This document shows, one piece after another, positions 406 to 16,690 of a stretch of DNA of 27,233 bases (position 1 is the first letter of the stretch; each line of letters begins with the position of its first letter). The DNA is taken from positions 1 to 27,233 of the forward strand of contig JAIRSN010000002.1 of NCBI GenBank assembly GCA_031255425.1. The letters are read 5' to 3'. The position numbers and the translations under genes were made by a program. The notes beneath the pieces were generated by a model that searched no databases, had not been told where the DNA came from, and saw only the letters and a program-made list of their open reading frames with translations. This DNA comes from Dysgonamonadaceae bacterium (GTDB taxonomy: Bacteria > Bacteroidota > Bacteroidia > Bacteroidales > Azobacteroidaceae).

Positions 406-628
406 CCGGGAACTCCCGAAAGTTATTTTACAACTGAATTCATGCTTTCGGGAGTTCCCGAAAGTTATTTTACAACTGAATTCATGCTTTCGGGAGTTCC
501 CGAAAGTTACTTTACAACTGAATTCATGCTTTCGGGAACTCCCGAAAGTTATTTTACAACTGAATTCATGCTTTCGGGAACTCCCGAAAGCATTTTTCCA
601 ACTGTATTTATACTTTCGGGAGTTCCCG
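406..628. repeat. Palindrome array 1: six palindromes, exact 42-base period
   Basis: The full unit palindrome is CTTTCGGGA, a central AC or GT, then TCCCGAAAG (20 bases). Copies lie at 445-464, 487-506, 529-548 and 571-590, with arm-truncated copies at about 406-422 and 613-628. All are separated by 22-base linkers containing ATTTTACAACTGAATTCA; one linker has TTAC for TTAT and the last (591-612) is degenerate. The centre is AC in the first, fourth and fifth copies and GT in the second, third and sixth, so the palindrome appears in both orientations while the linker keeps one. Identical linkers exclude a CRISPR. The 42-base period is a multiple of three, so an open frame with a 14-residue repeat (MLSGVPESYFTTEF) exists at 442-654, but nothing suggests it is translated. 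Confidence 0.9.
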
Positions 629-4837: not shown

Positions 4838-5638
4838 TCAGAGCGCTTTTCTTATCCGCAGCAGTTTGGCAAGCAGCGGTTCCAGCAGGTCGAGGGGCAA
4901 CATGTTTGCCCCGTCCGACAAGGCTTTTGAGGGTTCGGGATGCGTTTCGATAAACAAGCCGTCCGCACCGGTGGCGATGGCTGCTTTGGCGATTGTTTCA
5001 ATCAGTTGGGGCATCCCACCGGTCACACCGCTCGCCTGGTTGGGTTGTTGCAGCGAATGTGTCGCGTCCATCACAACGGGAAAGCCGAACGCCTGCATCT
5101 CCGGTATCCCCCGGTAATCAACTACTAAATCCGTGTATCCGAAGGTCGTGCCTCTTTCGGTGAGCAAGACCTGGTCGTTTCCGCTGTCGACCACCTTCTG
5201 CACGGCGAACTTCATGGCGGCAGGCGAAAGGAACTGTCCTTTTTTGATGTTGACCACCCGTCCCGTCCGGGCAGCCGCCGCCAACAGGTCGGTCTGCCGG
5301 CAAAGGAAAGCCGGTATCTGCAACATATCCACATACTGCGCCGCCCGGGCAGCGTCGCAATTTTCGTGTATATCCGTGACCACCGGTATATGGAACGTGT
5401 CCCGCACCTTTCCCAGGATTTTCAACGCTTTTTCGTCGCCGATTCCGGTAAACGAGTCCACTTTCGACCGGTTGGCTTTCTTGAAGGAGCCTTTAAATAC
5501 ATAAGGGATACCCATTCTTTGGGTAATTGTCGCGATTTTCTCGGCAATCGCCAGCGCCATCGCTTCGCTCTCGATGACGCAAGGTCCCGCCAACAGGAAA
5601 AAGGCGTCTTTTTGTACTAATTTTTTGATGGTAAGCAT
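4838..5638 (-). CDS. kdsA: 3-deoxy-8-phosphooctulonate synthase (Kdo-8-phosphate synthase)
   Basis: The enzyme condenses phosphoenolpyruvate with arabinose 5-phosphate to Kdo 8-phosphate, feeding the inner core of lipopolysaccharide. The 266-residue product is full length, with AGPCVIESE (17-25), FKGSFKKANRSK, TDIHE, QIPAFLCRQTDLLAAAARTGRVVNIKKGQF (stated by its conserved blocks), LTERGTTFGY, DATHS and ETHPEPSKALSDGANMLPL. Cys20 in AGPC is the metal ligand of the metal-dependent class, as in Aquifex aeolicus; the E. coli type has Asn there. The His of DATHS and the Glu of ETHPEP complete the expected ligand set. It is preceded by its own -7 box and separated from the upstream DUF1015 gene by a terminator. 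Confidence 0.96.
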   Translation of the reverse strand: MLTIKKLVQKDAFFLLAGPCVIESEAMALAIAEKIATITQRMGIPYVFKGSFKKANRSKVDSFTGIGDEKALKILGKVRDTFHIPVVTDIHENCDAARAAQYVDMLQIPAFLCRQTDLLAAAARTGRVVNIKKGQFLSPAAMKFAVQKVVDSGNDQVLLTERGTTFGYTDLVVDYRGIPEMQAFGFPVVMDATHSLQQPNQASGVTGGMPQLIETIAKAAIATGADGLFIETHPEPSKALSDGANMLPLDLLEPLLAKLLRIRKAL

Positions 5639-11825: not shown

Positions 11826-12722
11826 ATGAATAAAATTATCGAATGTGTCCCCAACTTCAGCGAGGGACGCGACCCGGAAAAAGTAGAGCGAATCGTCAAC
11901 ACCTTCCGCGCAAAAGAAAACATCAAACTCCTGGATTACAGCAACGACAAAGACCACAACCGGATGGTCGTCACCCTGATCGGCGAACCGCAAGCCGTCC
12001 GGGAAGCGATCGTCGAAGCCGTGGGCATTGCCGTGAAAGAAATCGACCTGACTAAGCACAACGGGCAACATCCGCGGATGGGCGCGGTCGACGTGATTCC
12101 GTTTATCCCCGTGAAAGGCATCACCGTAAGCGAGGCAGACGCGCTGGCAAAGGAAACCGGGAAACAGATCGCCGGAAAATACCGCCTGCCGGTCTTTCTG
12201 TACGAAAAATCAGCCACCGCCGACCACCGCCAAAACCTGGCAGCAATCCGCAAAGGCGAGTTTGAAGGATGGGCGGAAAAGATCAAACAGCCGGAATGGA
12301 AACCCGATTTCGGTCCGGACGAACGGCACCCGACCGCCGGAGTCGTTGCCGTCGGCACAAGGATGCCCCTTATCGCCTTCAACGTAAACCTGAACAGCAA
12401 CCGGTTGGAAATCGCAGACAAAATCGCGAAGAAAGTGCGCTTTCTCGGCGGCGGGTTGCGCTTCTGCAAAGCAATGGGCGTCGAATTGAAAGAGAAAAAC
12501 CAGGTGCAAGTGTCCATGAACCTGACGGATTACACCAAAACCGCTGTCTACCAGGCAGTCGAAATGATCCGTTTCGAGGCGCAGCGGTACGGCATATCCA
12601 TCGCCGGAAGCGAATTAATCGGGCTGGTGCCGTTGCAGGCGGTCGTCGACACGGCTTCCTACTACCTGGGACTGGAAAATTTTGAAATCAAACAAATATT
12701 GGAATCCCATTTAATGGAATGA
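11826..12722 (+). CDS. ftcD: Glutamate formimidoyltransferase
   Basis: The enzyme moves the formimino group of N-formimino-L-glutamate, made from histidine, to tetrahydrofolate. The 298-residue product is the stand-alone transferase; the cyclodeaminase half of the fused animal enzyme is a separate gene here (13955). It opens with ECVPNFSEGRD (6-16). The catalytic His is His82 in HNGQHPRMGAVDVIPFIP, and later blocks GVVAVGTRMPLIAFNVNL and GSELIGLVPLQAVVD are typical. Its last four bases (ATGA) overlap the start of hutI, so the two are translationally coupled. It heads a three-gene operon of late histidine degradation. Confidence 0.95.
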   Translation: MNKIIECVPNFSEGRDPEKVERIVNTFRAKENIKLLDYSNDKDHNRMVVTLIGEPQAVREAIVEAVGIAVKEIDLTKHNGQHPRMGAVDVIPFIPVKGITVSEADALAKETGKQIAGKYRLPVFLYEKSATADHRQNLAAIRKGEFEGWAEKIKQPEWKPDFGPDERHPTAGVVAVGTRMPLIAFNVNLNSNRLEIADKIAKKVRFLGGGLRFCKAMGVELKEKNQVQVSMNLTDYTKTAVYQAVEMIRFEAQRYGISIAGSELIGLVPLQAVVDTASYYLGLENFEIKQILESHLME

Positions 12723-13954: not shown

Positions 13955-14587
13955 ATGCAATCACTATCAGAATTAGCCGTTAAAAAATTTTTATTAGTCA
14001 CCGCCGGCGACGATCCCGTTCCGGGCGGAGGAAGCATCTCGGCGCTTTGCGGCGCTTTGAGTGCCGCTTTGGGTCAAATGGTTACCAACCTGACCATCGG
14101 AAGAAAGAAATATGCCGGCCAGGAAGAAAACATGAAAGAAATGGCGGTCGTGTTCAATTCTTATTTGGACGAATTTGCCGGATACATAGACGCCGATTCG
14201 GAGGCTTACGATGCGGTCTTTTCGGCGTATAAGTTGCCGAAAGAGAGCGAGGAAGAGAAAGCCGTCCGGACGCAGGAAATTCAGGCGGCGACCAAAATAG
14301 CGGCGGAAATACCGCTCCAGGTAGCGCGAAAAGCGTATAAGATGATGGACTTCGTCAGCATGGTGGCAAAAACGGGGAATCAGAACGCGGTGACTGACGC
14401 CGGCGTCGCCATGATGTGCGCCCGGACAGCCGTATTGGGTGCCTTGCTGAATGTGAAGATCAACCTTTCCTCTATTCTCGACGCGGAGTATGCGGACAGG
14501 ATGAAAAAGGAGTGCGATTTCATAGAAGAAAAGGCTATCGAAAAGGAACAGAAACTATTGAGCTGGCTACGGACGGCGTTGGAATAG
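13955..14587 (+). CDS. Formimidoyltetrahydrofolate cyclodeaminase / cyclohydrolase family protein
   Basis: A 210-residue protein of the FTCD_C (FchA-like) family. In this position it most likely releases ammonia from 5-formimino-tetrahydrofolate to yield methenyl-tetrahydrofolate, completing the reaction started by ftcD; some relatives act as methenyltetrahydrofolate cyclohydrolases. The family signature PVPGGGSISALCGALSAALG is near residues 21-40, followed by MVTNLTIGRKKY. The rest is all-helical in appearance, with VARKAYKMMDF and DAGVAMMCARTAVLGALLNV in the second half. It begins 18 bases after hutI. Only seven bases separate its stop from the first hairpin of the second repeat region. In many Bacteroidales hutH sits next; it is absent here. 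Confidence 0.9.
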   Translation: MQSLSELAVKKFLLVTAGDDPVPGGGSISALCGALSAALGQMVTNLTIGRKKYAGQEENMKEMAVVFNSYLDEFAGYIDADSEAYDAVFSAYKLPKESEEEKAVRTQEIQAATKIAAEIPLQVARKAYKMMDFVSMVAKTGNQNAVTDAGVAMMCARTAVLGALLNVKINLSSILDAEYADRMKKECDFIEEKAIEKEQKLLSWLRTALE

Positions 14588-14593
14588 GCGCCG

Positions 14594-14617
14594 GACACGC
14601 AGTGTCTTTTATAATTT
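14594..14617 (+). terminator. Terminator-like GCA-loop hairpin after the hut genes
   Basis: GACAC-GCA-GTGTC (14594-14606) followed by TTTTATAATTT begins seven bases after the cyclodeaminase stop. It is identical in stem and loop to the first hairpin of the other repeat region (181-193). It probably ends the ftcD operon transcript and shows that this repeat family supplies working terminators. Confidence 0.6.
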
Positions 14618-14890
14618 GCGGCGGTGCCGGTGGCGCTGCCGCTTTTGTATTTTAAAGAGGCTGCGGATTATCATCATTCTATACCTATATATAAGGTGTA
14701 ATGAAACATGCGATGCCGTATCCTATACTTCGCAAATAGAAGTAAAAGCGGCTGCGCCGCCAAAACAACCAGTAGCCACAAAGACATTATCCCCTATATC
14801 CCAACCTCATTAAAATATAAAAGTGGCTATGCCGCCGCAGCCAAGCAGATACACCGTACTCCTTTAAAATTATAAAAGAGGCTGCGCCTC
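14618..14890. repeat. GCA/TGC-loop hairpin cluster, left part of repeat region 2
   Basis: A larger stem GCGGC...GCCGC (14618-14642) with inner GGC-GCT-GCC is followed by a T-rich tail in plus orientation. Then come three hairpins in the opposite orientation: GCGGC-TGC-GCCGC (14748-14760), GTGGC-TAT-GCCGC (14823-14835, one G-T pair) and GAGGC-TGC-GCCTC (14878-14890). All three follow an A-rich stretch such as ATATAAAAG. The word CTATATCC, then AACCTCATTAAAATATAAAA at about 14803-14822, is also found inverted at the right end of element 1 (about 700-720). About 14650-14740 contains nothing else that I recognise. Confidence 0.65.
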
Positions 14891-15116
14891 TGCCCCGGGG
14901 CAAAAGTTATTTTGCAACTGGATTTAAGGTTTTGCCCCGGGGCAAAAGCTATTTTGCAACTGAATTCAAGGTTTTGCCCTAGGGCAAAAGCTATTTTACA
15001 ACTGAATTCAAGGTTTTGCCCCGGGGCAAAAGCTATTTTGCAACTGAATTCAAGGTTTTGCCCGGGGCAAAAGTCATTTTACAACTGAATTCATGCCTCC
15101 GGGAACTTCCGAAAAC
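14803..15116. mobile_element. MITE-like element 2, right arm degraded
   Basis: The left arm (14803-14890) is homologous to the arms of element 1, with the same end word, ATACACCGTAC and a terminator-like hairpin, and leads directly into the palindrome array. On the right the matching arm is missing or decayed: after the last palindrome there is an A-rich stretch and a single GACAC-GGA-GTGTC hairpin (15152-15164) without the usual T-rich tail. No transposase is present and mobility is inferred. Confidence 0.4.
14892..15116. repeat. Palindrome array 2: six palindromes, 42-base period
   Basis: The unit palindrome is TTTTGCCCCGGGGCAAAA, with cores GCCCCGGGGC at 14892, 14934 and 15018. A symmetric variant GCCCTAGGGC is at 14976, and a shortened GCCCGGGGC at 15060. 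Starts are exactly 42 bases apart. The linkers contain ATTTTRCAACTGAATTCA (R is G or A), essentially the same linker as in array 1, although the palindromes have no similarity. The sixth palindrome (about 15096-15116, CCGGGAACTTCCG) is different and resembles the array-1 palindrome. Identical linkers exclude a CRISPR. Confidence 0.9.
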
Positions 15117-15185: not shown

Positions 15186-15217
15186 TTTGGAAGTTAAGGA
15201 TCGTTTTCCTATTTTTG
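15186..15217 (+). promoter_or_regulatory. Promoter of the type IX secretion cargo gene
   Basis: TTTG at 15186-15189, exactly 20 bases, then TATTTTTG at 15210-15217 match the Bacteroidota consensus. The start point would be about 15223, downstream of the possible GTG/TTG/ATG-type start at 15173. This supports the ATG at 15269 as the true start. Confidence 0.7.
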
Positions 15218-15268: not shown

Positions 15269-16690
15269 ATGAAAAAAAAACTTAGCTATTTTGTGATGAT
15301 GTCCTGCTTTCTTCTCTCAGGACAAGTGAGTACCGGAAATGTTTATTTACCTACCGTGGCGTATCGCGGCGCCGAGCGTAATTTGAAGATCGAATACAAG
15401 TACGACCTTCAGGGAAATATGACATTGGAACAGTATTCTTACCGGGATGCCGCATCGGGAAAGTACCTGCCGGAGTCTATTGTCGCGTTGGAATACCACC
15501 TGCTGCCCAACGGCGAGTATGCCACCTCCAAGCGGGAAATTACAATGTACAGCAAAATCGGGAGTGAAACAGACATCATGCGTTATCGTCAAACATTCGG
15601 TTTCGACAACAACGGGATGAGATTGTTTGAAAAGTATGAATACCTCAACCCGCAAGCAACCCAATGGACGCAATCGTGGGGAGAGGAAGCTATCCTCGAT
15701 CAAAACGGCATCCGTACCGGACTGAAAACGTGGAACTACGAAACCGGTCAACTGGAAGTAGATCCCCATTACTCCTTCGACAATAAGGGGCGGCTGACAA
15801 AGATGCCTTACGGCAGCGACGGCAGTGGGGCAGTGTCTTATCTCCATTGCACATGGGGCAGCAAACTGAACGAATTGACGGACATTCGTATCGACAACGG
15901 CACGAGCTTCACCAATATCGTTCCCCGTATCAATCAGGAGTACTTCGATGCGTACACCCTTTATCCGATGGATGCGAGCAAAGGAAGTATCGGCAATGGC
16001 ATTTATGCCTGGGAAGATTACATGTTGCACACCGTGTTTGCCGATATGGACGTGACGCTTATGGGAAAGACCGGAAAGTATGCCTGTACGATAGACGACG
16101 CCAAGGGAGAGTGGACGCGAACACTCACATTGGACGGGCAGGTACACTCCCGCAATACACTCACCCGGCTTCCCAACGGCGGATGGGAGTCGACGGAGGT
16201 TTCTGCCAATGATGGGAACCGGGAAAGGAAAACCCGGATAGAGTACAATAAATACGGCGCATTGGTGCATTATTATGATTTGGGAACCCAATCCGATCCG
16301 GACGGCAACTTTGTTCCGGAGGAACATTTCTACGACCGTGAATACGACTCGTCGGGTCGCCCGAAAAAAACCACTCACCGCAGGAACGGCTACGAGGAAT
16401 ATACCGAAACCTACGAGGACTGGGCTAACGTAAACGCGACGGTAGGCATTCGGGAAATTGCCCAGCCGGTGGCGTCGGTTTATCCCAATCCGGCAACGGA
16501 TTACATTCGGATCGGCAACGTTGAGAAAGCGGATATTATGATCAGCGACCTGTCCGGACGCATCGTCTACCGGCAAGCAGGCGTAACGGGCGGTGAGGCT
16601 ATCCCGGTCGCTTCGCTGGTGAAAGGGATGTACCTGATGACCGTTCGGGAGGGAAATCGTACGACAAGCAACAAATTCATTAAAAAGTAA
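15269..16690 (+). CDS. Secreted protein with type IX secretion sorting domain
   Basis: The 473-residue protein is exported by Sec and then by the type IX system, and is probably attached to the cell surface or released. The signal peptide is at about 1-22 (MKKKLSYFVMMSCFLLSGQV). The body contains loosely repeated YD-like units ([YF]-[DN]-x-x-G), for example YKYDLQGNM, FGFDNNGM, YSFDNKGRL, IEYNKYGAL and YDSSGRPKK, suggesting a beta-rich scaffold. The C-terminal domain at about 401-473 has the diagnostic blocks VYPNPATDYIRI, ISDLSGRIVY, GMYLMTV and a final NKFIKK. No catalytic motif was seen; binding or structural roles are likely. The upstream in-frame start at 15173 is rejected because the promoter lies at 15186-15217. 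A strong terminator follows. Confidence 0.88.
   Translation: MKKKLSYFVMMSCFLLSGQVSTGNVYLPTVAYRGAERNLKIEYKYDLQGNMTLEQYSYRDAASGKYLPESIVALEYHLLPNGEYATSKREITMYSKIGSETDIMRYRQTFGFDNNGMRLFEKYEYLNPQATQWTQSWGEEAILDQNGIRTGLKTWNYETGQLEVDPHYSFDNKGRLTKMPYGSDGSGAVSYLHCTWGSKLNELTDIRIDNGTSFTNIVPRINQEYFDAYTLYPMDASKGSIGNGIYAWEDYMLHTVFADMDVTLMGKTGKYACTIDDAKGEWTRTLTLDGQVHSRNTLTRLPNGGWESTEVSANDGNRERKTRIEYNKYGALVHYYDLGTQSDPDGNFVPEEHFYDREYDSSGRPKKTTHRRNGYEEYTETYEDWANVNATVGIREIAQPVASVYPNPATDYIRIGNVEKADIMISDLSGRIVYRQAGVTGGEAIPVASLVKGMYLMTVREGNRTTSNKFIKK

Follow-up and report, generated by a model that had tools for sequence, protein, structure and literature searches.

Dyad arrays with a period of 41-43 bp before two gene families of Bacteroidota, traced from a stray copy in a Dysgonamonadaceae contig

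The stretch of DNA analysed here, called the window, is a contig of 27,233 bases (C175) from a Dysgonamonadaceae assembly of 2.0 Mb in 274 contigs that is 76.9% complete. It carries two tandem arrays that combine one linker with two different palindromes, and the second of these, array 2, raises the question of what kind of element would keep its period and its symmetry while its palindrome is exchanged.

Array 2 lies on the plus strand at 14891..15093, where Tandem Repeats Finder reports a period of 42, 4.9 copies, and 91% matches. Its palindrome is TTTTGCCC(CG)GGGCAAAA and its linker CAACTGAATTCAAGG..GCTATTTTG, with five palindromes of the array's own type whose cores stand at 14892, 14934, 14976, 15018, and 15060, giving unit lengths of 42, 42, 42, and 41. 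The first palindrome (14891..14902, no strand) is cut by the left flank to 12 bases, TGCCCCGGGGCA, and is fused there to a flanking short hairpin repeat, AAAAGAGGCTGCGCCTC. The second (14930..14947) and fourth (15014..15031) both read TTTTGCCCCGGGGCAAAA, the third (14972..14989) reads TTTTGCCCTAGGGCAAAA, with a paired change at its centre, CCCTAGGG, and the fifth (15056..15072) has 17 bases, lacking one central base, which accounts for the final spacing of 41. A sixth palindrome at about 15097..15113, CCGGGAACTTCCG, is decayed and resembles those of array 1; judged by eye, the tail that holds it is common to the arrays of contigs C23, C28, C60, and C62, which have other palindrome types.

The initial annotation had described a linker core common to both arrays, and CAACTGAATTCA is indeed present in each. 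It was also right that the palindromes differ in length, TTTTGCCCCGGGGCAAAA having 18 bases and CTTTCGGGAACTCCCGAAAG of array 1 having 20, and that linker length offsets the difference. Its count of six palindromes in array 2 has to be amended to five of the new type, the sixth being the decayed array-1-like copy, and its 42-base period holds for the first three spacings, but the last one, at 41, makes the period less than rigid. A CRISPR reading of the arrays was considered as well; unique spacers were not found, and linker and palindrome both repeat inside an array.

Array 1 (407..628, plus strand; period 42 by Tandem Repeats Finder) has the same linker, shows CTTTCGGGAACTCCCGAAAG next to units with this palindrome exactly inverted (AGTT loop), and is flanked by inverted copies of GCGGCTGCGCCGC-TTTTATATTTT. 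A second dispersed family occupies the window at 181-420, 600-700, and 14600-14890; its short palindromes are bracketed by AAAAG and CTTTT, with TATAATTTTAAAG coming next, and examples are AGGCTGCGCCT, ACACGCAGTGT, and CGGCTGCGCCG. This hairpin family also keeps its frame and swaps its palindrome, and it borders several arrays, with inverted copies at some of them.

The linker recurs throughout the source genome. The 2.0 Mb assembly contains 48 copies of its core CAACTGAATTCA, against 0 for a reversed control, and tandem pairs of the linker at the array spacing number 56 + 58 = 114, again against 0, so chance does not explain the sharing of the core. Parsing of 37 stretches from 36 source contigs besides the window, with 5 of 40 array chains discarded as chance before the units were analysed, yielded at least 35 arrays and 166 units, of which 137 are 42 bases long, 28 are 41, and one is 43. 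The family has the consensus CAACYGNATTY, with copies scattered over both strands. In 119 unique 42-base units the linker hardly varies at AAC, ATT, and TTT, and the stem forms Watson-Crick pairs in 84-92% of cases at columns 17-21 and in 75-80% at the outer columns 15-16. The two innermost stem pairs are common in all four Watson-Crick forms, which relates the palindrome types to one another by paired changes, and because the dyad axis is fixed relative to the linker, the period within this family follows loop length.

Clustering of the hairpin cores at up to four mismatches gave 23 clusters, a rough figure, since similar types fall together and variants that differ by one base in length come apart; ten clusters occur in at least two of the 35 arrays. 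They include TTTCGGGAGTTCCCGAAA (eight arrays), TTCCGGGAAACCCGGAA (five), TTGTTCGTGAACAA and TTTTGCCCCGGGGCAAAA (four each), and the smaller TTCCGCCCACCGCCGGAA and CGTCGCCCCGGGGCGACG (three each) and TTGCTAAACGATTAGCAA (two). The palindrome type switches midway in the arrays on C23, C124, and C85, and in 4 of the 35 arrays a palindrome stands beside its own exact inversion, which points to hairpin or cruciform intermediates. The suggestion that the palindrome is exchangeable, with several types to be expected in one genome, is thus borne out by the many types that one linker carries here at a period of 41 or 42. Two source-genome arrays have linkers other than CAACYGNATTY, L161 9571-9759 (period 41) and L167 2361-2622 (period 42), with the palindromes TTCCTAATGCATTAGGAA and GGGGTAACCCC.

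Within the genomes scanned, arrays with this linker are confined to the source species and a single contig from a close relative. A scan of genome contigs for three linker copies returned 24 stretches, most of which, by eye, are chance tandem or coding repeats, and only L072 has the same array, 95% identical to source contig C212 over 581 bp. L072 is identical to contig C102 of the same-genus genome G014, and the 95% identity suggests either a close relative or a misbinned contig. Among 45 family genomes the linker was found in the source, in G014 (on that contig), and in four genomes with a single match each; among 395 phylum genomes, six besides the source gave single chance-like matches, and the viral contigs scanned held no linker arrays. 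In another organism, Pedobacter nototheniae, the loci L074 and L093 of one genome hold 41-base arrays that combine one linker (..TCCCGACAACCGGATTC..) with two different middles, just as the two arrays of the window do.

Arrays on C15, C47, and C111, with the same linker as array 2, precede genes of one type. The longest gene piece, on C47, matches the Pfam family DUF6261 (PF19775), and the short contig-end pieces on C15 and C111 match it only via relatives. The source genome has 14 PF19775 matches, 12 of them above the cut-off. With the source included, the family was matched in 14 of the 43 family genomes searched and in 12 of the 395 from the phylum (11 above the cut-off), with up to 14 matches in a genome, and named carriers include many Chryseobacterium species, C. 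nepalense among them, and two 'Tannerella sp.' MAG proteins. An array was called where at least 42 of 60 bases were identical at the best lag, with lags of 20-69, and each locus had to have 250 bp or more of upstream sequence. This removed 12 of 61 loci; L259 (a weak PF19775 match) was also left out, and the gene start of L225 was reset by hand because the open frame of the gene extends through its array.

A strong array precedes the gene in 37 of the resulting 49 DUF6261 loci, and its best lag is 42 (21 loci), 41 (14), or 43 (2) and no other; if doubled periods are also accepted, the count becomes 39 of 49. Without the two discovery loci (L217 and L242), 35 of 47 loci remain, and by origin the arrays fall into 5 of 5 loci of the source genome, 20 of 24 of family genomes, and 12 of 20 of other phylum genomes. 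Five of the 12 loci below threshold still have a best lag of 41 or 42. Palindromes differ from gene to gene, and so in most cases do linkers, the array sequences including TTTCTACCCATGGTAGAAA, TTGCTGCAACGCAGCAA, AACAGATCCGCCGGATCTGTT, TTTCAGGAAGTCCTGAAA, and TTTCGGCGCGTGCCGAAA. The linker had been proposed as the common scaffold of the arrays; since the linkers of paralogues and of other species are mostly unrelated, that role does not fall to it, and what persists is period and dyad symmetry.

In the structure model of DUF6261 the body is helical and the C-terminal part Ig-like. The proteins scanned reached no Pfam cut-off except that of DUF6261, the best other being MLTR_LBD at 22.1 bits against a cut-off of 26.3. 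Tandem repeats of 69 bases also lie beside DUF6261 genes at L224, L226, L228, L230, L240, and L246, and from their period we presume them to be BspA-type leucine-rich repeat genes. At L232, a SAM-II riboswitch (Rfam RF01726; 1662-1720) faces a SAM synthetase-like gene near the intergenic region with the DUF6261 array. On the minus strand of L164 (C170), at 12348-12716, an ORF with a DUF6261-like start (..ARNEAHFQ..) runs into a linker array and looks as if the array arose or landed within the gene start.

A second gene family shows the same arrangement. Two arrays of the linker scan, L073 and L084, precede genes of a family of ~320 residues, both proteins being without a Pfam match, which is here called family 2. 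A search of six genomes gave 42 matches, of which 12 had no locus; of the 30 loci, four with less than 250 bp upstream were dropped, leaving 26. These genomes are not a random sample, five having been picked for a linker-like array and one (G256) for a family-2 match. Arrays with a period of 41-43 bases stand before 23 of the 26 genes (22 of 25 without the seed locus), with a best lag of 42 in 20, 41 in two, and 43 in one; of the other loci, one has a best lag of 21, and two, L272 and L291, miss the threshold, their best lags being 41 and 42. The random phylum draw held family 2 in 1 of 395 genomes, and that locus, L270, has a best lag of 21. Comparison of family 2 with DUF6261 by hhalign gave nothing convincing (probability 8% global, 1% local), and by our reading of the sequences the two are probably built alike, with a helical body and an Ig-like end.

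Controls were the upstream regions of mechanically called ORFs with ATG. Arrays were found in 2 of 285 of these (40 stretches from 15 same-genus genomes), and one of the two belongs to a DUF6261 gene itself. With the source-genome loci added the figure is 14 of 428, 12 of the 14 lying in source loci (L040-L069, L160-L165) chosen because they carried, or possibly carried, the linker. ORFs neighbouring the target genes had an array in 17 of 135 cases; sorted by strand and position by eye, 15 of these are on the strand opposite to the target and have its intergenic array in common with it; of the other two, one overlaps the target and L241 is on its own. Two further arrays were noted. An orphan in another species, L197 115-597 (G021:C2), has 21/42-base units with TTTTTGCCGGCAAAAA and lies upstream of what by eye is a homocitrate/isopropylmalate synthase-like gene, in a genome without a PF19775 match. 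At L092 4801-5110, a 42-base array precedes a 220-residue gene at 5205 that has no Pfam match; by eye it looks helical with a fibronectin-like end, and it is possibly a third array family.

Arrays with units of 41-43 bp are thus associated with DUF6261 and with family 2. They have about 2-9 units, mostly with a dyad, and period, symmetry, and position are conserved. The occurrence of fixed-period dyad arrays before two gene families is the strong result. For their function, the best explanation, to which we would give about an even chance, is that these are upstream dyad arrays phased at four helical turns and acting in cis near promoters. The array would work as DNA: if 42 bp make four helical turns, all dyads would lie on one face of the helix, where a protein that bridges the sites or binds them cooperatively, or the extrusion of hairpins, could act and tune the nearby promoter. 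Several observations weigh against this explanation. Most DUF6261 cores are acidic (median pI 5.5, n=51), and no DNA-binding fold was recognised in the family. Of the 35 source arrays, three lead to a DUF6261-type gene, 15 to a contig end, and 17 are orphans, and similar arrays occur elsewhere at L197 and L241. In the source species, where the linker family is dispersed, arrays stand before unrelated genes as well.

The alternative that fares best, though still unlikely, is a type III toxin-antitoxin-like module made up of promoter, array, and gene, in which repeat RNAs of ~42 nt would bind their own downstream protein and paralogues would diverge against cross-talk. Type III systems (ToxIN, CptIN, TenpIN) combine a ToxN-type endoribonuclease toxin with repeats that are the transcribed antitoxin, and the likeness lies in locus-particular tandem repeats directly upstream of a gene; the hairpins, the position 5' of the gene, and the up to 14 family matches per genome would suit an RNA. 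On this reading one expects promoters upstream of the arrays and tolerance of G-T pairs on the sense strand. Boxes of the form TAnnTTTG, which we take to be the Bacteroidota -7 promoter box, were counted on both sides, leaving out three DUF6261 loci with the array more than 350 bp from the ATG. Of 37 DUF6261 loci, 14 have a box upstream of the array (resampled mean 2.5, maximum 8), from which transcription would run through the repeats, a point against the DNA reading, and 7 have one in the gap between array and gene (mean 1.2, maximum 5). Family 2 speaks against RNA, with boxes upstream in 1 of 26 loci (mean 2.5) and in the gap in 10 of 26 (mean 3.3, maximum 8).

The stem mismatches are likewise divided. 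In 21 family-2 arrays G-T outnumbers A-C by 28 to 10, and in the source linker arrays by 12 to 6, as an RNA would have it; 22 DUF6261 arrays have no such excess (27 to 32), and unpaired linker bases are biased in the same direction by about 1.4-1.5. The family-2 ratio exceeds that linker background of ~1.5, and this, like the excess in the source linker arrays, counts against the preferred reading in terms of DNA. A further point against it is that the palindromes are only moderately better than those of shuffled units, 4.5% of shuffles reaching the consensus-palindrome median for DUF6261 and 9% for family 2. PADLOC models gave no match for three DUF6261 proteins, Rfam gave no match at the array in ten array loci, and a ToxN-type toxin was not found downstream of arrays (Pfam for the scanned DUF6261 proteins, L073, and L084; PADLOC for the three DUF6261 proteins). 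The helical DUF6261 model with its Ig-like end and the family-2 boxes between array and gene are further differences from type III systems, and a period of 41-43 kept across the phylum would be unexpected for RNA repeats. Promoter sides and mismatches together are taken as favouring DNA, with an RNA role possible for some members.

A purely neutral origin is somewhat more doubtful again. Slippage would make minisatellites, hairpins would rewrite the palindromes, and gene conversion would homogenise the arrays, all without selection. Turnover is very fast. The DUF6261 paralogues L235 and L247 of one genome are 69% identical over their first 235 residues, and their DNA matches ahead of the array (z 17.5) but not in the arrays themselves, which are unrelated (z 1.1), so arrays can be replaced, not merely drift, and replaced by another of the same period. 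The arrays of L230 and L246 (68%, one genome) are unrelated too, with no shared upstream region, and those of the close pairs L210/L213 and L260/L265 are shared. Protein and array similarity correlate (Mantel r 0.30, 0/2000 permutations), a correlation driven by a few close pairs (L210/L213, L043/L217, L250/L260/L265); the median unit similarity is 12 both above 40% and below 25% protein identity, so protein and array sequence do not co-vary in general.

Loop inversions and mixed arrays would also suit neutral change. It leaves unexplained, however, why arrays precede members of two gene families and are rare in other places, why their period is 41-43 when other tandem repeats in the same genus are scattered in period, and why linker positions differ so sharply in conservation, AAC, ATT, and TTT standing out from the rest. 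For arrays acting in cis as DNA, the freedom of sequence would follow if hairpins served as templates for paired changes and inversions of the palindromes and if arrays were homogenised or replaced in blocks. The initial annotation's model, that period and symmetry matter and the palindrome is exchangeable, holds insofar as period and dyad persist across unrelated arrays; the linker, which it had kept constant, proves exchangeable too. Its comparison to specificity variants describes a possible reading.

It is improbable that the arrays are MITE-like or REP/BIME-like elements moved in trans by a transposase, as are BrickBuilt and PgRS of P. gingivalis. REP/BIME elements are dispersed extragenic palindromes of about 20-40 bp with paired changes and tandem clusters and a GTAG or CGTC hairpin tag. 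The arrays resemble them in dispersal outside genes, paired changes, and tandem clustering, but their units are direct and not alternating, and column composition gave no conserved GTAG/CGTC tag beside the hairpin, one palindrome type having CGTC inside its stem. Mobility would fit the dispersal of the linker family on both strands, the recurring leaders and tails, and the several arrays beside GCGGCTGCGCCGC-TTTTATATTTT repeats, of which only some lie between inverted copies. The flanks of the arrays differ, however, and elsewhere arrays go with particular genes and have unrelated sequences, a pattern not to be expected from transposition of a single element. The initial annotation had advised looking for a DNA-binding or transposase gene whose variants co-occur with the palindrome types; the DUF6261 family does co-occur with arrays, but it has no recognised DNA-binding fold, and no Y1 (IS200/RAYT-type) transposase was found in the 76.9%-complete assembly (0 matches to PF01797).

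The nearest described elements are in the same order. P. gingivalis BrickBuilt and 464/PgRS MITEs are intergenic tandem repeats of 23 nt and 41 nt at many sites, the 41-nt repeats lying inside 464/PgRS (PMC4596501). Bacteroidales hosts, intergenic tandem repeats, and a leader and tail or repetitive flanks are common to both, as far as the portion of that paper drawn on here extends (PMC4596501). In the same portion, terminal inverted repeats define the elements, each element family has one repeat sequence, and neither a gene-private array nor a period common to unrelated sequences is described (PMC4596501).

A coding origin, with 42 bases as 14 codons and 14-residue repeats (..FQLNS.. or ..TEF..), is highly improbable and was rejected because the frame is not kept: many arrays leave two of the three frames open, and an ATG lies in frame upstream of the C160 array, but that frame runs into a stop within the array, the 41-base units (28 of 166) break the frame, open frames differ between arrays, and variation, with columns read by eye, is not concentrated at third positions.

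Among known systems the arrays also resemble phased operator or partition-site arrays. Iterons and parS/parC are tandem sites at helical spacing whose bound sequence is kept. The arrays share with them tandem sites upstream of a gene and helical spacing; they differ in that the sequence here can change completely between paralogues. A cis element with conserved length and symmetry but free sequence is the opposite of what motif searches target and would have been missed by them, and no description of such arrays was found in open-licence full-text literature, where one paper mentions DUF6261 a single time. A bolder proposal, which we think has a small but real chance, is an array-writing process in Bacteroidota with a 42-bp ruler of four helical turns. 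It would make dyad arrays from local sequence before the two multicopy families and replace them in blocks between a conserved promoter region and a gene that is conserved too, each paralogue thereby gaining a private cis-acting barcode read by period and symmetry and not by sequence.

The array class joins two families of unknown function, DUF6261 and the Pfam-less family 2, and offers a direct handle on both. As independent natural arrays, its members form a series for studying the readout of DNA spacing and the birth and replacement of satellite-like arrays in bacteria, and the Chryseobacterium species that carry DUF6261 genes put cultured organisms at hand.

Array 2 itself is a stray copy of this apparently undescribed class, which precedes two unexplained gene families in several Bacteroidota classes. 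It has the anatomy of the DUF6261-type arrays, with 41-43 bp units and a dyad, and no DUF6261 or family-2 gene downstream. On its 5' side is a gene for 210 aa (13955..14587, plus strand), which we take to be a formiminotransferase-cyclodeaminase. The next gene on its 3' side (15269..16690, plus strand), 175 bp away, encodes 473 aa, has by eye a signal-peptide-like start, and is not DUF6261; the array is an orphan on that account. Between array 2 and this secreted-type gene, at 15210..15217 on the plus strand, TATTTTTG matches TAnnTTTG and is likely to be the promoter box of the 473-aa gene, to judge from its sequence, so that array 2 would lie upstream of a promoter box, in the same placement as the family-2 arrays.
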